Shown here piece after piece: positions 47,789 through 60,479 of a stretch of DNA of 64,000 nt. Positions within the stretch are counted from its first letter, which is position 1, and each line of letters opens with the position of its first letter. The DNA comes from Hahella sp. CCB-MM4. GTDB taxonomy: Bacteria > Pseudomonadota > Gammaproteobacteria > Pseudomonadales > Oleiphilaceae. The notes under the pieces are model-generated. The model saw only the letters and a program-made list of their open reading frames with translations. It ran no database searches and had not been told where the DNA came from. Position numbers and translations under genes: made by a program. The stretch is taken from contig NZ_MRYI01000001.1 in NCBI RefSeq assembly GCF_002260525.1, positions 124,001 to 188,000 of the forward strand. The letters are read 5' to 3'.

Positions 47789-48737
47789 AGGACAGCTCCT
47801 CGCGGCTGATTCGCTCCAAAGTTACGGCTACTTCCGGTTGCTGTTGGCCAGCACCGTAGCAAACTCCCTTTAAGGGAGGCACATCACTGTAGTCGCGGCC
47901 GACGGCCACGATCACGTGTTCATCTTGCACCCACATATTGTTGGTCGGATCCACATGCATCCATCCGTAGTCGGGCACATGCAAGGCGACCCAGGCATGG
48001 GAGGCATCCGATCCCTGCCGCTTTTCTTCACCTTTTGGCGGGTAAGTCATCACATACCCGCTGACATAAGCGGCCACCAAACCCAGGCTGCGTAAACCGG
48101 AAACCGCCAGGTGCGCAAAGTCCTGACAGACTCCCTTGCGGATTTCCAGAAACTCGCCAAGCGTAGTGTCCACCTGAGTAGCTCCGGATTCGTATTTGAA
48201 GTCCTTATGTATCCTGCCGGCAAAATCCAATAGCGCTTCCGCGACTGGACGACCTGGAGTGAAACTGCTCAAGGCATAATCCCGGGCTTCATCATGGAAG
48301 GGAACCATCGGGCTTGGATAAGCAAAGGAACACAATTCCATCTGCTGGCGCCCTTGTAATGATTTATAGGTCATCTGTTCCCAGGGCTTTTCACAGGACG
48401 GGTTAAAAGGCTTCGGAGAGCGCCCGACGACTGCTTCGCTGGTCACTTTTAACTGCTGATGGGGTTTATGAACCTCAAAATAGTGGACCCTGTTACCGAA
48501 ACTATCCGTCTGCACATGCTGGAATCTGGGCTTGGGATCAATGCGAACCCGGTGTTCGAGGACCTGCTGCTCCAATCGGACCAAGGGGGCCAGCCAGGCT
48601 TTGTTATAGGCCAGCGAGGCCAGCCCCGGGTATCGATACAGGGTTTCGTGTCGCACCCGAATATAGGTAACCTCAGCGCATGAATCGGGTAATGGGCTGG
48701 GCGTGTTTGAAGTATTGGTGTTCAATGTCGAGTCCAA
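47778..48737 (-). CDS. Transglutaminase-like protein (cysteine peptidase fold)
   Basis: The ~319-aa protein has a bacterial transglutaminase N-terminal beta domain (IRVRHETLYRYPGL) and a transglutaminase core with the catalytic triad Cys (RKGVCQDFAH), His (SDASHAWVALH) and Asp (MHVDPTNN). In this context it may cleave or form amide bonds in the peptide made by the ATP-grasp/amidoligase partners. No in-frame ATG exists near the N terminus. The candidates are TTG at 48737 or 48725 and GTG at 48656, so the start is uncertain. The longest form overlaps the 3' end of the ATP-grasp/alpha-E fusion gene by 65 bases, implying coupling. Confidence 0.88.
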   Translation of the reverse strand: MDSTLNTNTSNTPSPLPDSCAEVTYIRVRHETLYRYPGLASLAYNKAWLAPLVRLEQQVLEHRVRIDPKPRFQHVQTDSFGNRVHYFEVHKPHQQLKVTSEAVVGRSPKPFNPSCEKPWEQMTYKSLQGRQQMELCSFAYPSPMVPFHDEARDYALSSFTPGRPVAEALLDFAGRIHKDFKYESGATQVDTTLGEFLEIRKGVCQDFAHLAVSGLRSLGLVAAYVSGYVMTYPPKGEEKRQGSDASHAWVALHVPDYGWMHVDPTNNMWVQDEHVIVAVGRDYSDVPPLKGVCYGAGQQQPEVAVTLERISREELSYGH

Positions 48738-51180
48738 ACTGGCTGAAAGTTGTCGTCAATTCATTGAGGAAGTCAGCCAACGCGGTTTTCGTCAGCTCCG
48801 TGTTATGCCACTCGCTGGCATCAGCCAGCCGCAGCGGTGTAAGCCCGGATAGCACCCTTTTTTCCAGCGGCATCAAGCCCCTGTGAGGGTTGGGGTTGAG
48901 ATAGCCGAGCATAGGCTCCATCGCGCTTACCGTGCTTACCAGGGATCTTGGATTGGTTGGCTCCAGCAGAAGATGCTGCCAAGTCGTGTAGTATGTCTGA
49001 TCGGTCCCAAAGCGACGTCGGTGACTGTTCAGACAATCATTGGCTTCCAGCAGCACATGCCGCAATCCACCTTCATTCTCTTCCGAGAACAGAGGACACA
49101 ACCGCTGAATACTATTGACCGTATTTTGGGAACGCTCAAGTCGCTTGCCCAATTGTAGCCAAAGCCCACCCTGGTCCAGGGCCAGGCTTTCCTGGCTGGC
49201 TCCCCAGAAGGCCAGCAAGCCAGTCAAAAATGGCTGAATAAACTGATCCAGCGCCACCCCTTTCTGATTCTTTTCGGTATAGTCGAGCAACTCTTCCAGT
49301 TCCTCTATCGCCCGCCAGCAATCGCCAGACCATAAATCCCGCAAGGTATAGGCGGTTTGAATGGCGCAACGGAGATTGAATGCCACACTGCCTGTGTGTT
49401 GACTATCGAGAATAAACCCCTGCAACACGTCCTGTCGGGGCAGGCGTTGTTGTTTACCATCCACGACACAATAAAGTTCGATCAGCGGCTTCAGGTTAAC
49501 CAATACCTGGGCATCAACCTCATCACCGTAGTCAAAGTAGTTTTCCAACTGGCGCAGATAGGCACGAATCAGGCGCAACAATGACTCTCCACGCTCCATG
49601 TATCGAGCCAGCCAGAAAAGGTTCTCTGCCGCACGGCTGGTCAGAATCGCAGAGGCCGTTCGCCGATGTCTGGCAGGATTAAGCCGCAAGACATCCCGCA
49701 TGGAGCCGTTACTTTTAATCAGCCAGGTATCCTTACTCAGCCCCCCCATTTGGCTGGATACAACAAAATTATTGGCATCCGGTGACACCCGGCTCAACCC
49801 GCCCGGCATTACGTCATATTGCTCACCATCACCGGCAGCAAAGGTCCGGATAACAAGATGGCGCGGATGCAGTGCGGAATCTGCCAGTGTCGGCACTGTG
49901 GAAAAGCTCAGCAGTTGCTGGCCCACATATAGCCAGGGTTCGGCTTTAATGCGATTGATTAAATCCGTTTTCTGAGACTTACTTAATTTGTTGCCATATA
50001 CCACACCGGTCGCGCGATCCACCCGCTTAATCACCAGCGAATCCAGTTTACTGATCACGTGCTGGCGTTCCTTATCCTGACCACACCACCAGGTTGCCAC
50101 CTCCGGCAGCTTTAGATCCTCGTTAAGGAAATGGCGGGACAATCCAGGTAAGAACGGCAACAGCGCCGGAGACTCCAGCATGCCGCTACCCAGAGGGTTA
50201 GCCATACCGACCCGCCCCAGCGCTTGGGCCTGAGCCAGCCCCGGCACGCCCAGCATGGAATCACCGCGAAAATTCAGAGGATCACTGTAGGCATCATCAA
50301 CCCGGCGAATGATGACATCTACCTGCTTCAGGTCATCAACCGTTTTCAGGTAAACCTTACCCTGTCGCACAGTCAGGTCATCACCCTCAACCAGGGTAAT
50401 CCCCAACTGGGCCACCAGATAGGCATGCTCAAAATACACCTCATTACCAATCCCGGAAGATAGCAGGACGATAGTTGGGTCACTTTGATTATCCGGGGCC
50501 AAGGCGGCGACATGGCGTTTCAGGTGGTAGAAATATTGTGCCAAGGGGGCAATGGAGTAATCGACAGCCCCCTGCCCGAGTACTCTTTTGGTAACCATCC
50601 GGGCTTCGAGCACATATCCTGCCCCAGAGGGGCCTTGTGTACGATCACTCAAAACCCACCAGGTACCGTCCGGCCCCCGCGCCAGATCGGCTGCGTACAG
50701 GGTCAATGGGGAAGGGACACCTCCCACCATGGAACGCAGGAATCCAGGGTGCTGGTACACGACCTCTGGCGGTAACAGACCATTCTTGAGGCAGGTCTGA
50801 TTGCCCATGATATCGCTCAACAATAGCGAAAACAGCCTCGCTCGTTGTTGCAGGCCAACCTCGAGCGGAGTCCAGTCCTTCTCGGAAAAAACCATGGGCA
50901 GAGGATCAAGCTGCCAGGGACGCCGCATTCCTTCAGGATCATTGTAAACGTTGTAGTTTACCCCCTGCTCTTTCAGCCGGCGCAGGCTCTCCTTATTGAG
51001 GTTATCCAGATCACTTCTCGATACACCGGAAAAGTACTCGGCGAATGGCTGCCAGTGCGGCCGAATTTTTCCCTGTGCATCCATCATCTCATCGTAGGCG
51101 GTTGCCAATGGAGAGTATGGGACGTCGCTCAAGTCCAGGTCGGTCTGAGAAGGAACCGTTAATGGAGTAGTATCAGGCAT
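48673..51180 (-). CDS. Fused circularly permuted ATP-grasp and alpha-E protein
   Basis: The 835-aa fusion joins the two activities encoded separately by the last two genes of the cluster. The first ~490 residues are a COG2308-type ATP-grasp (GMRRPWQLDPLPMVFSEKDW, YVLEARMVTKRV, VDVIIRRVDDAYSDPLNFRG, VVSSQMGGLSKDTWL). The alpha-E domain follows (ENLFWLARYMERGESLLRLI, about 510-800). In the nucleotide loop the Gly-rich stretch is VIKRVDRATGVVYGNKL rather than KPANESGGYGML, so the active site may be altered and this copy may be structural or have another substrate. It lies 29 bases after the transglutaminase-DUF2126 gene. Confidence 0.9.
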   Translation of the reverse strand: MPDTTPLTVPSQTDLDLSDVPYSPLATAYDEMMDAQGKIRPHWQPFAEYFSGVSRSDLDNLNKESLRRLKEQGVNYNVYNDPEGMRRPWQLDPLPMVFSEKDWTPLEVGLQQRARLFSLLLSDIMGNQTCLKNGLLPPEVVYQHPGFLRSMVGGVPSPLTLYAADLARGPDGTWWVLSDRTQGPSGAGYVLEARMVTKRVLGQGAVDYSIAPLAQYFYHLKRHVAALAPDNQSDPTIVLLSSGIGNEVYFEHAYLVAQLGITLVEGDDLTVRQGKVYLKTVDDLKQVDVIIRRVDDAYSDPLNFRGDSMLGVPGLAQAQALGRVGMANPLGSGMLESPALLPFLPGLSRHFLNEDLKLPEVATWWCGQDKERQHVISKLDSLVIKRVDRATGVVYGNKLSKSQKTDLINRIKAEPWLYVGQQLLSFSTVPTLADSALHPRHLVIRTFAAGDGEQYDVMPGGLSRVSPDANNFVVSSQMGGLSKDTWLIKSNGSMRDVLRLNPARHRRTASAILTSRAAENLFWLARYMERGESLLRLIRAYLRQLENYFDYGDEVDAQVLVNLKPLIELYCVVDGKQQRLPRQDVLQGFILDSQHTGSVAFNLRCAIQTAYTLRDLWSGDCWRAIEELEELLDYTEKNQKGVALDQFIQPFLTGLLAFWGASQESLALDQGGLWLQLGKRLERSQNTVNSIQRLCPLFSEENEGGLRHVLLEANDCLNSHRRRFGTDQTYYTTWQHLLLEPTNPRSLVSTVSAMEPMLGYLNPNPHRGLMPLEKRVLSGLTPLRLADASEWHNTELTKTALADFLNELTTTFSQFGLDIEHQYFKHAQPITRFMR

Positions 51181-56367: not shown

Positions 56368-56765
56368 TATTGGGCCCCGGAACTGAGCATAATTTGCCCC
56401 TTATCAATATTTTGGCTCCCAATTGGTGCAATCCTATTAATCAGAGCAGGAAGCGCTGAACCGCCGGATAAAACATAAGTCGCTTTCATAATACTGTAGC
56501 AATCTGATAATTCGGGAGTTTTCCGTCGTCGCTAAACTCACCGGCAAGCATTGGCATAGGTGATGCTTAACTACGGATTAAGTACCGATTAAAGTACGGA
56601 TAAGGAATGCAGGTAATCAGTTTGTCATTTACCAAGAGTAAATTTTTAAGTCCGAAAGACGACCTTTGACCCAGAAGATAGCGATTGTAACAGCTACCTG
56701 AAATGATGACTCAATCGTAATGAAATCACTTGAAAAGTGAGGGTATGAAGAGCTGTGGTGAGGCC

Positions 56766-57235: not shown

Positions 57236-58357
57236 TTAAACCAGTTCAAGACCTTGTTCTGGTGTCAGCGACTCAATATTTTGAGCCACGCCTACAGACG
57301 GACAAGTCAGTTGACCTTTCACCACGTTCAGACCTTGCAGCAGATAAGGGTTATCTGTCAGGGCTTTTCTTGCGCCTTTGTTGGCCAACTCCATCACATA
57401 AGGCAGTGTGGCATTGGTCAGGGCCAGTGTAGAGGTTCTGGCAACCGCACCAGGCATGTTGGCGACACAGTAATGCACTACGTCATCCACAATAAAGGTT
57501 GGTTCTGCATGAGTCGTCGCGTGAGAGGTTTCAAAACAACCGCCCTGGTCGATGGCTACGTCAACCACCGCCGCGCCGCGCTTCATACGTTTCACCATGT
57601 CACGGGACACAAGTTTCGGTGCTGCCGCGCCGGGGATCAGAACTCCGCCAATCACCAAGTCTGCACGGGTAACCCAGTCTTCCACAGATTTGGCTGTCGA
57701 GAAGACGGTCTGCACGCGGTTACCGAAGATGCTGTCGAAACGACGCAACGCATCAATCGATTTATCCAGTACGACAACATGGGCTCCCATGCCTACAGCC
57801 ATCTGGGTCGCATTGAAGCCAACGACTCCACCACCCAAAACGACAACCGTCGCGGCATCTACACCAGGCACACCGCCCAGCAACAGACCACGACCACTTT
57901 GAGATTTTTCAAGGCAGCGTGCGCCGGCCTGAATACTCATACGTCCCGCCACCTCAGACATAGGTGCAAGCAGCGGCAGACGGCCATGCGCATCAGTGAC
58001 AGTTTCGTAGGCAATACAGGTAGCACCGCTCTTCAGCAGATCCTGGGTTTGAGGAACATCCGGTGCAAGGTGCAGGTAGGTGAACAAGGTATGCTCAGGC
58101 CTCAACATTGCACGTTCCTGGGCCTGAGGTTCCTTAACTTTCACGATCATCTCGGCAGTGGCAAATACTTCTTCTGCCGTAGAGAGAATGCGGGCTCCTG
58201 CTGCTTCATATTGGTCGTCGGTGAAATCGATTGCAGTGCCGGCATCCTTCTGCACCACCACCTGATGGCCATGTTGAACCAGCTCATGAACAGCATTGGG
58301 GGTCAGACCAACACGGTATTCATGGTTTTTGATTTCCTTGGGGACTCCAACGAGCAT
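57236..58357 (-). CDS. ald: Alanine dehydrogenase
   Basis: This enzyme catalyses NAD-linked interconversion of L-alanine with pyruvate and ammonia. At 373 aa, normal length, it starts [20 protein letters not shown]. Catalytic Lys and His lie in the region VKVKEPQ and YLHLAPD, and the NAD Rossmann motif is [17 protein letters not shown] near residue 170. GGAGG lies four bases before the ATG. It is divergent from an Lrp/AsnC regulator, a standard ald-control arrangement, with alanine or leucine the likely effector. Confidence 0.95.
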
Positions 58358-58452
58358 AGGACCTCCTATTTAGGTTGTTTGTGTTGTGGTTATTTGCTTC
58401 ATTGTTTTTTCACACGTGATAATTAAGATTATAAATAACCCCAAAAGAACAA

Positions 58453-58522
58453 TGATCTAAAGTCAGCCTTAGTGTTAGCATATTTATCTGTATTTATGAC
58501 GTTTGCGGAGTATTGATCTAAA
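58453..58522. promoter_or_regulatory. Repeated TGATCTAAA in the ald-lrp control region
   Basis: TGATCTAAA occurs at 58453-58461 and 58514-58522, 61 bases apart, the second copy ending six bases before the lrp ATG. The 170-base divergent gap is A/T-rich and is the expected site of Lrp-type control of ald and autoregulation. The motif itself is only a candidate. Confidence 0.3.
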
Positions 58523-58527
58523 CAACC

Positions 58528-59016
58528 ATGAAAAAACAGATTGACAGAATAGACGTTGCCATCCTGAACGAGTTGCAGAAAAACGCTCGCATTTCCAACA
58601 CGGATCTGTCCAGACGGGTGAATCTTAGCCCCACCCCCTGCCTGGAACGGGTCAAACGTCTGGAACGGGATGGATATATCAAGAAATTCACCTCCGTCCT
58701 GAATGCCAAGAAGCTGGGAGCGGGACTTGTTGTCTTTATTGAGATCGGACTCAACCGGACCTCCCGGGATGTATTTGCGGAATTTAAGCAGGCGGCCATT
58801 AAAGTTCCCGAAGTACAGGAGTGTCATCTGGTGTCAGGTAATTTTGATTACCTGATCAAGGCACGTGTTGCGGATATCGATCAGTACCGGGCCTTGTTGG
58901 GAGAAAAGATTCTGTCTCTGCCTGGAGTGAGAGACTCTCGTAGTTACGTGGTGATGGAAACGGTCAAAGAGACCCAGGAACTGAACCTCCGTACACAAGC
59001 AGACACTCTCAGTTGA
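58528..59016 (+). CDS. lrp: Lrp/AsnC family transcriptional regulator
   Basis: The 162-aa regulator closely follows Lrp: an N-terminal helix-turn-helix (DRIDVAILNELQKNARISNT, LSRRVNLSPTPCLERVKRLE), then an RAM ligand-binding domain with VPEVQECHLVSGNFDYLIK and VSGNFDYL, and a C terminus VMETVKETQELNL. Family members bind branched-chain amino acids or alanine. It is divergent from ald, which it probably activates. Whether it is the global Lrp or a dedicated alanine regulator cannot be told. A 20-bp degenerate tandem repeat starts within its last codons. Confidence 0.93.
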   Translation: MKKQIDRIDVAILNELQKNARISNTDLSRRVNLSPTPCLERVKRLERDGYIKKFTSVLNAKKLGAGLVVFIEIGLNRTSRDVFAEFKQAAIKVPEVQECHLVSGNFDYLIKARVADIDQYRALLGEKILSLPGVRDSRSYVVMETVKETQELNLRTQADTLS

Positions 59017-59100
59017 GACTAGACTCGAGAGGTTCAAATTAGACACAGCAGTTTAAGATTAGCCACGGCAGGCTGAGAACAGAGACTGCAGGTTTAAGGT
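59001..59100. repeat. Five-unit degenerate 20-bp tandem repeat between convergent lrp and cobC
   Basis: Units begin at 59001, 59021, 59041, 59061 and 59081, in exact 20-base register. Each starts AG and most match AGACACnGCAGGTTnAAGnT. The middle and last units are closest to the consensus and the first is weakest. The array spans the last five codons of lrp, the intergenic gap and the first bases of the cobC stop region (cobC ends at 59094). Unit-to-unit identity is about half to three quarters. Confidence 0.55.
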
Positions 59101-59657
59101 TCGGAGTCCCACTCAAAAGACATGACAGCCCCATAATCGAATGGAATTTTGAAGGTGTCACCTTGAGGCCAGGACCGGTATTCAGGATGCAGTTGCAGAC
59201 AAAGACTGCGTAATACGCCCGAATGAGCAACGACTACGACAGTTTCATCTGAGGAGTGGTCAGAGAGATATCGGCGGACAAACGCCTGTGTGCGCGCATA
59301 TAGGTCCTGGAAGCTTTCTCCACCCGGCGTTGATTGGGTTTGCCAGTTGTTTCCCCACGCTCTCGCTTCATGCTGAGGGAGGTCCTGCCAACGTTGTCCT
59401 TCCCACTCGCCAAAATCCATTTCCATCAGCAGATCACAATAGTTGGGTCTCTGTCTCAAATCGGTGGAGATGGCTTCTGCCAATATTCGGCAACGGCTCA
59501 AGGGGCTACTGTAAATATGATGGCACAGATCAGGTATCTGCTGACGAATGGCTTCTAACTCGTCAGGGTATGATGGAGCCAGAGGTACATCCAGTTGTCC
59601 ATAGACCGTCCCTTTGGCGACGCCTACACAAGTATGTCGAATCAGTACGATATGCAT
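59094..59657 (-). CDS. cobC: Alpha-ribazole phosphatase (histidine phosphatase family)
   Basis: The 187-aa phosphatase removes phosphate from alpha-ribazole-5'-phosphate or cobalamin-5'-phosphate, finishing nucleotide-loop assembly. The catalytic motif is LIRHTCVG with the phospho-His. Further histidine-phosphatase elements are SSPLSRCRILAEAI, EMDFGEWEG and VVVVAHSGVLRSL. Length and context fit CobC. It is the last gene of the cobalamin operon, six bases after the cobS stop. A general phosphoglycerate-mutase-like phosphatase is the alternative if context were ignored. Confidence 0.93.
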   Translation of the reverse strand: MHIVLIRHTCVGVAKGTVYGQLDVPLAPSYPDELEAIRQQIPDLCHHIYSSPLSRCRILAEAISTDLRQRPNYCDLLMEMDFGEWEGQRWQDLPQHEARAWGNNWQTQSTPGGESFQDLYARTQAFVRRYLSDHSSDETVVVVAHSGVLRSLCLQLHPEYRSWPQGDTFKIPFDYGAVMSFEWDSEP

Positions 59658-59663
59658 CAGAGT

Positions 59664-60479
59664 TCAACGAACCAGAATCAGTAAAACGGCCATCTCAGCC
59701 AATTGCTGCACGGCTCCCAGACAATCACCGGTATATCCGCCAAGCCGCTTCAAAAAGTAGACTTTACAGCAATATCGCAAAGCGGCCGAAACAGCGACCA
59801 CAACAACGGCGGCACCAAAAGGTACAAAAAACAGGGGCAGGACCGCAAACATCAACGCCATCCCTACATCCCCTGGTTCGATACTTTTGGCGATAGGTTT
59901 AACTTTGCTACGCTGGTCCGCTTGAACATAGGGAAGATCACCCACCAGGCTGATCGCCAGTACACGGCTGACACTATGCGCCAGCCATATGGCAGCCAAT
60001 GCCTGTGGTATTGTCATTTGTGCCAGAAAGATAATCTTTGCCACGACTGACACTGATAGGGCTAATGCTCCATAGGTGCCTATCCGGCTGTCCTTCATGA
60101 TTTCCAGTATTCGCTCAGGCGTATATCCTCCGCCAAAGCCGTCAACAGAATCAGCCAGCCCATCCTCATGAAATGCGCCAGTGACCAGAATACCGGCAAC
60201 CACCGCCAACAGTGCTGCAATCCAGGGTCCGTGCCACCAAGCCCCCAATAAATAGGCTGATGCCACTACCGCTGCCACGATCCACCCTATAAGGCCGATA
60301 TAGCGGCTCGCCCGGTTAAGGTCCGCCTCGTCATAAGGCAGGATCAAACGAGCCGGGATACGCGTATAGAACTGCAGTGCCATCAGCAGCCATTGCAGCT
60401 CCTGTCGCCACCAGCTCTCCTGACTGCCGGTATTCGTACCGTCACTCTCTGAAGCACTCGGTGTTTGATGATCTGTCAT
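59664..60479 (-). CDS. cobS: Adenosylcobinamide-GDP ribazoletransferase
   Basis: This integral membrane enzyme joins adenosylcobinamide-GDP and alpha-ribazole to give adenosylcobalamin (or its phosphate). The 271-aa protein has the N-terminal segment ALQFYTRIPA and the conserved acidic motif FHEDGLADSVDGFGGG, with SRIGTYGAL and several hydrophobic helices after. The start at 60479 is an ATG with AAGG upstream; an in-frame TTG at 60503 would overlap cobT by 4 bases. It lies between cobT and cobC. Confidence 0.94.
   Translation of the reverse strand: MTDHQTPSASESDGTNTGSQESWWRQELQWLLMALQFYTRIPARLILPYDEADLNRASRYIGLIGWIVAAVVASAYLLGAWWHGPWIAALLAVVAGILVTGAFHEDGLADSVDGFGGGYTPERILEIMKDSRIGTYGALALSVSVVAKIIFLAQMTIPQALAAIWLAHSVSRVLAISLVGDLPYVQADQRSKVKPIAKSIEPGDVGMALMFAVLPLFFVPFGAAVVVVAVSAALRYCCKVYFLKRLGGYTGDCLGAVQQLAEMAVLLILVR

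Follow-up and report, generated by a model that had tools for sequence, protein, structure and literature searches.

A degenerate 20-bp tandem array in the convergent lrp/cobC gap of Hahella sp. CCB-MM4, probably a decayed intergenic minisatellite

The gap between the convergent lrp and cobC genes of Hahella sp. CCB-MM4 carries a degenerate bacterial minisatellite, an element of a known kind, composed of five 20-bp units (positions 59001–59100 of the 64-kb DNA stretch analyzed in this study, referred to as the window). The array was probably generated by local tandem duplication of non-coding DNA followed by neutral decay. Taken alone it represents ordinary non-coding drift; what is surprising is how many independent arrays this lineage has compared with the sister species H. 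ganghwensis.

Results

Organization of the array

The source assembly (6,663,740 bases in 161 contigs) has the same size and scaffold number as the published genome of Hahella sp. CCB-MM4 (PMC5646410). As revealed by ORF and Pfam analysis, lrp (positions 58528–59016, + strand; TGA stop codon at 59014–59016) encodes an Lrp/AsnC-family regulator of 162 aa, while the convergent gene (59094–59657, − strand) encodes a cobC-like histidine phosphatase of 187 aa, whose name was taken from its position beside cobS and cobT-like genes.

The five units, all read on the + strand, are (i) unit 1 (59001–59020; AGACACTCTCAGTTGAGACT), whose first 16 bases constitute the last codons and the TGA stop of lrp, (ii) unit 2 (59021–59040; AGACTCGAGAGGTTCAAATT), (iii) unit 3 (59041–59060; AGACACAGCAGTTTAAGATT), which has the top score against the unit matrix, (iv) unit 4 (59061–59080; AGCCACGGCAGGCTGAGAAC), and (v) unit 5 (59081–59100; AGAGACTGCAGGTTTAAGGT), which shares its final 7 bases with the 3′ end of cobC. 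Their consensus is AGACACNGCAGGTTNAGATT. Bases matched at 48 of 80 positions at a lag of 20 and at 36 of 60 at a lag of 40 (60% identity in both cases). These coordinates and matches bear out the preliminary description of this DNA, in which five units starting with AG were reported to run in exact 20-base register from the last lrp codons through the convergent gap; the array continues into cobC.

The comparison with shuffled sequences that had been proposed there gave a clear result: the five-unit score of the array was 118, a value reached by none of 3000 dinucleotide shuffles (mean 51.0, sd 6.3). In a scan of the whole window for five-unit arrays with periods of 8–40, the array stood out most strongly (z 10.8, best start 58997), the next best period having z 6.5. 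It therefore contains the three or more head-to-tail copies beyond chance, with a unit of approximately 10–60 bp, by which minisatellites are defined. However, Tandem Repeats Finder (TRF) with standard penalties missed the array even at a minimum score of 30, and only relaxed penalties recovered it (59012–59101, period 20, 4.4 copies, 64% matches, score 86). When two-unit stretches were aligned with MAFFT, the units slipped out of register. Elsewhere in the window, TRF detected weaker tandem arrays at 48097–48172 (period 24), 50294–50351 (period 18) and 56567–56601 (period 11).

The orthologous gap in H. ganghwensis

The Lrp proteins of CCB-MM4 and H. ganghwensis DSM 17046 are 93–94% identical, and the lrp reading frames of both end at the same length. 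The array is absent from the orthologous lrp/cobC gap of H. ganghwensis, which measures 46 nt between the aligned flanks, compared with 108 nt in CCB-MM4; the difference of 62 nt corresponds to approximately three units. Copy number, which the preliminary description suggested checking in related strains, thus differs at the species level (no array in the one sister species analyzed, five units in CCB-MM4), as is typical of minisatellites. The DNA located 3′ of lrp in G001, G002, G004 and G005, four further Hahella genomes, looks unrelated, as judged by eye, and G003 lacks a close lrp (40% at best), so that the direction of change at this locus, gain or loss, could not be polarized.

Similar arrays in the CCB-MM4 genome

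The genome was scanned for intergenic arrays of 3–5 units with periods of 12–30 and z≥8. The CCB-MM4 sample was a non-random 864 kb (the window and forty 20-kb stretches, from two contigs), the stretches of other genomes were chosen by convenience, and coding and intergenic DNA were separated by a simple longest-ORF model. This analysis identified 32 intergenic arrays in CCB-MM4 and 5 in 800 kb of H. ganghwensis (odds 5.9, P 1.8e-5); the array at lrp, treated as isolated in the preliminary description, is accompanied by many unrelated arrays of like kind. Four further genomes contained 1 array in 400 kb (G001, another Hahella), 2 in 200 kb (G015), 8 in 100 kb (G012, of a related genus) and 1 in 100 kb (G029), while shuffled copies of all six genome sets yielded none.

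The excess of CCB-MM4 over H. ganghwensis varied with the threshold, from 42:16 at z≥6.5 (where shuffles gave 2 and 3 arrays, respectively) through 41:9 at z≥7 to 21:1 at z≥10. Relaxed TRF detected 50 arrays in CCB-MM4, 14 in H. ganghwensis, 1 in G001, 7 in G015, 7 in G012 and none in G029. The array density of CCB-MM4 is therefore approximately six-fold that of its sister by the z≥8 scan and three-fold by relaxed TRF. A high density is not confined to CCB-MM4, since G012 is denser still; its arrays include several that are near-perfect and some with a common unit. The near-perfect intergenic arrays of G012 lie in three of the sampled stretches (L158, L159 and L161), and two of them, both in L159, have the common core GGGAATGACAG.

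Among the CCB-MM4 arrays of 4–5 units with z≥8, the period was a multiple of three in all 13 coding arrays, and was not in 17 of the 29 intergenic ones. A single 20-kb stretch (L077; contig C74, 100001–120000) supplied 6 of these 29: it is a local hot spot of six unrelated degenerate intergenic arrays with periods of 13–27. Two of the intergenic arrays are perfect simple repeats rather than decayed ones. The first, at L087:8360 (C74), consists of at least 10 repeats of the octamer ATAGCTGA where a gene ends within a convergent gap, and is perhaps recent. The second, at L058:5433 (C1), comprises at least 8 repeats of the hexamer CAGAAA in a convergent gap that is 43 nt shorter in the sister.

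Two other places on contig C74 deserve mention. In a 21-bp array at L073:2190, units 1 and 3, as well as 2 and 4, appear by eye to be more alike, giving an apparent 42-bp higher-order pattern that suggests stepwise duplication with divergence between steps. The region L090:1835–2900 contains 27-base periodic coding repeats, which resemble the glycine/aspartate-rich, calcium-binding repeats of RTX-type proteins.

Common properties of the arrays

Seven of the 29 intergenic arrays could be mapped to sister stretches, and in each case the H. ganghwensis gap was array-free and 43–127 nt shorter. Of the 50 TRF arrays, 10 were mapped (6 of them shared with these seven), all to array-free sites; by either route 11 different arrays were placed, including the loosely mapped L059:14801 (gap of 951 vs 165). 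In the reverse direction, none of the 14 TRF arrays of the sister could be placed on the CCB-MM4 sample.

Exclusion of the two perfect simple repeats left 27 arrays for tests of identity, columns, hexamers and folding. Mean unit identity was 0.713, 0.673 and 0.598 at lags of one to three units, and 0.654 at a lag of four (11 pairs). Mismatches were distributed among the columns as evenly as expected from random placement (P>0.05) in 26 of the 27 arrays, a test of low power at 4–5 units; the single array with uneven columns was L085:11394 (P=0.039). No hexamer was common to more than three of the 27 consensus units, which equals the result for shuffled units, and a motif common across the arrays was therefore rejected. 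The G+C content of the arrays (0.42) was close to that of gaps (0.44). Nineteen of the 29 arrays lie nearer to a stop than to a start codon (null 11.4, sd 2.6, P 0.003), and nine are located in convergent gaps (P 0.003 on the basis of gap bases and 0.025 on that of gap number). This behavior (sister gaps, identity, columns, hexamers, composition and gene-end bias) points to local tandem duplication followed by decay, with arrays kept where they are least harmful.

Predicted RNA structure at the lrp 3′ end

In silico folding of the + strand of positions 59001–59100 gave a structure of −32.0 kcal/mol, with z of −4.5 to −5.1 against dinucleotide shuffles and −3.2 against permutations in which the tandem layout was kept. 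The predicted structure contains a long imperfect stem (59039–59097, + strand) in which units 2 and 3 pair with unit 5 around an inner hairpin, and no T-run follows it. In 54 array-strand tests, this strand had the lowest dinucleotide z and the second lowest z by permutation. It is thus conceivable, if unlikely, that the array acts in RNA, with two hairpins at the lrp 3′ end that would stabilize the transcript, help to end it or limit antisense transcription coming from the convergent cob genes; repeats that were partly self-complementary by luck would then have been retained. Consistent with such a role, the array directly follows the lrp stop codon between convergent genes, and positions 59037–59100 alone have a z of −5.4.

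However, the value is sensitive to the boundaries: z lay between −0.7 and −3.9 for nine stretches that were wider or shifted, and was −2.3 for positions 58995–59125. A z of −4.5 or lower was reached by 13 of 350 sampled gene ends in CCB-MM4, and folding was unremarkable for the minus strand of the array (z 0.5 and −1.3) and for the gap region of H. ganghwensis, which is unstructured (z 0.69). RNA structure as a trait of the whole class was rejected, because the mean z of the 27 arrays (−0.75) is barely lower than that of 60 control gap stretches (−0.52). The array also lacks the GC-rich hairpin followed by a T-run of an intrinsic terminator: no terminator-like site was found on either strand at 59000–59100, the two in 58000–60000 lying elsewhere. 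Rfam gave no match at the array in a search of positions 58400–59700, where the sole match was sub-threshold (59583–59621; 15.2 bits vs a gathering score of 45, E 0.61). Of the transcript-end structure considered in the preliminary description, the unusual + strand fold stands, while the T-run is missing and the signal drops over the wider stretch. The predicted fold might, with low probability, serve at the end of the lrp transcript.

Protein binding and mobile elements

A 20-bp period amounts to about two turns of the helix, and five units in exact register would place binding sites for a protein, e.g. the neighboring Lrp-family protein or a nucleoid protein, on one face of the DNA; Lrp/AsnC proteins do bind phased sites. 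This explanation, also raised in the preliminary description, is very unlikely. The units do not show the conserved core columns expected of an operator array, since their variable columns are placed as by random decay (P=0.28, a weak test with five units). Furthermore, the array is absent from the sister despite an Lrp of 93–94% identity, it is located at the end of lrp and not at its promoter, no second array of the same unit was found in the genome, and the periods of the other arrays range from 12 to 30.

Searches for relatives of the unit gave the following results. At E≤0.001 the array region matched only itself within its own genome. Positions 59017–59100 compared with 24 genomes (CCB-MM4 and 23 related ones) gave, beyond the self-match, only chance-level matches (best E 0.129), and no matches to the array were found in plasmid and phage collections. 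The pattern AGACACNGCAGNTTNAGAT, with up to 3 mismatches, had 62 matches in the genome, compared with 45 for a reversed-pattern control; these were scattered singles, and the lrp/cobC locus was the only one among the matches listed with two in tandem. Within the window the pattern matched three times, twice in the array itself. The unit matrix, applied to the 864 kb, identified one other tandem pair of weak units (L081, pair score 18 vs 38–42 for the array) and a single still weaker place. A dispersed family of the unit was therefore rejected. That the array is a remnant of an inserted mobile or satellite element (a transposed satellite or a REP/MITE-like sequence) is the least probable explanation, agreeing with the longer gap in CCB-MM4 but not with the occurrence of the unit at one locus instead of several, the empty plasmid and phage searches, the lack of a common hexamer, or the overlap of unit 1 with an lrp coding end of equal length in H. 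ganghwensis.

Discussion

Of the three options given in the preliminary description, the evidence speaks most strongly for an old expanded repeat: the sister gap has no array, the gap lengths differ by about three units, and the mismatches are decay-like. That option is retained here, whereas protein binding and the isolation of the array are not. According to the decayed-minisatellite explanation, a 20-bp stretch at the lrp end would have been tandemly duplicated in the lrp/cobC gap after the split from H. ganghwensis, with a net gain of approximately three units (62 nt). Established knowledge suggests that the copying occurred by strand slippage or by some related form of short-range tandem duplication. 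The copies would then have diverged by ordinary substitution to approximately 60% identity, the array having no dedicated function, and it probably persists because additional DNA is tolerated at a site between two stop codons. A like process probably operated at many other intergenic sites of the genome, in each case on local sequence.

Several observations do not fit this explanation easily. The identity of the focal array is flat with lag. Loss of the array in the sister may also account for the difference in gap length, no outgroup having kept the lrp/cobC order. The fold of the sense RNA beyond tandem-preserving permutations is not predicted by neutral decay. Finally, the excess over the sister is threshold-dependent and the column test has low power at 4–5 units. 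Gain rather than loss, slippage and neutrality are nevertheless the readings that we favor.

Among known systems, VNTR/MIRU typing loci are likewise tandem minisatellites. VNTRs consist of near-identical copies that vary between strains, whereas the units of the focal array are only about 60% alike and the comparison presented here is between species. The arrays also resemble the bacterial minisatellites and satellites described by Subirana and Messeguer (2019, PMC6749651), which are tandem copies of short units, unevenly distributed among species, with multiple-of-three lengths marking coding repeats. According to that survey, satellites exceed 4/Mb in only 18 of 119 bacteria. Degeneracy is greater in the CCB-MM4 arrays than in the satellites described there, the focal array being missed by TRF with standard penalties, and densities are therefore not directly comparable; the CCB-MM4 arrays also lack a common unit or any sign of transposition. 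The TAACTGA repeats of marine Beggiatoaceae (PMC4679880) are similar in being genome-wide intergenic tandem repeats of marine bacteria, some of them over stop codons. They represent one fixed heptamer at many sites, mostly towards gene starts, whereas in CCB-MM4 the unit differs from array to array and is usually longer, and gene 3′ ends are favored. No report of such arrays in Hahella was found in the literature searched. Since standard repeat-finder penalties miss the focal array, arrays of this type may be under-reported.

It may be, although we put this forward with less than even confidence, that the CCB-MM4 lineage has, or had in the past, an elevated rate of short (mostly 12–24 bp) tandem duplication in non-coding DNA. 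Such a rate would have produced perhaps 200–400 unrelated, mostly decayed arrays over the whole genome, a number extrapolated from the 32–50 found in the non-random 864 kb. As to the cause of the abundance of arrays, Ku was found in none of the 10 genomes searched, and ExoI, the ExoVII large subunit and Y-family polymerases were present in all 10, CCB-MM4 included; being uniform, none of these four families explains the array excess, and they were rejected as the cause.

If the rate was indeed elevated, the arrays would preserve the natural traces of a mutational process that is far less active in the sister species. A genome such as that of CCB-MM4, in which each Mb contains dozens of independent and mostly degenerate minisatellites, lends itself to studying what determines how often short tandem duplications arise in bacteria and why they are tolerated at gene 3′ ends.
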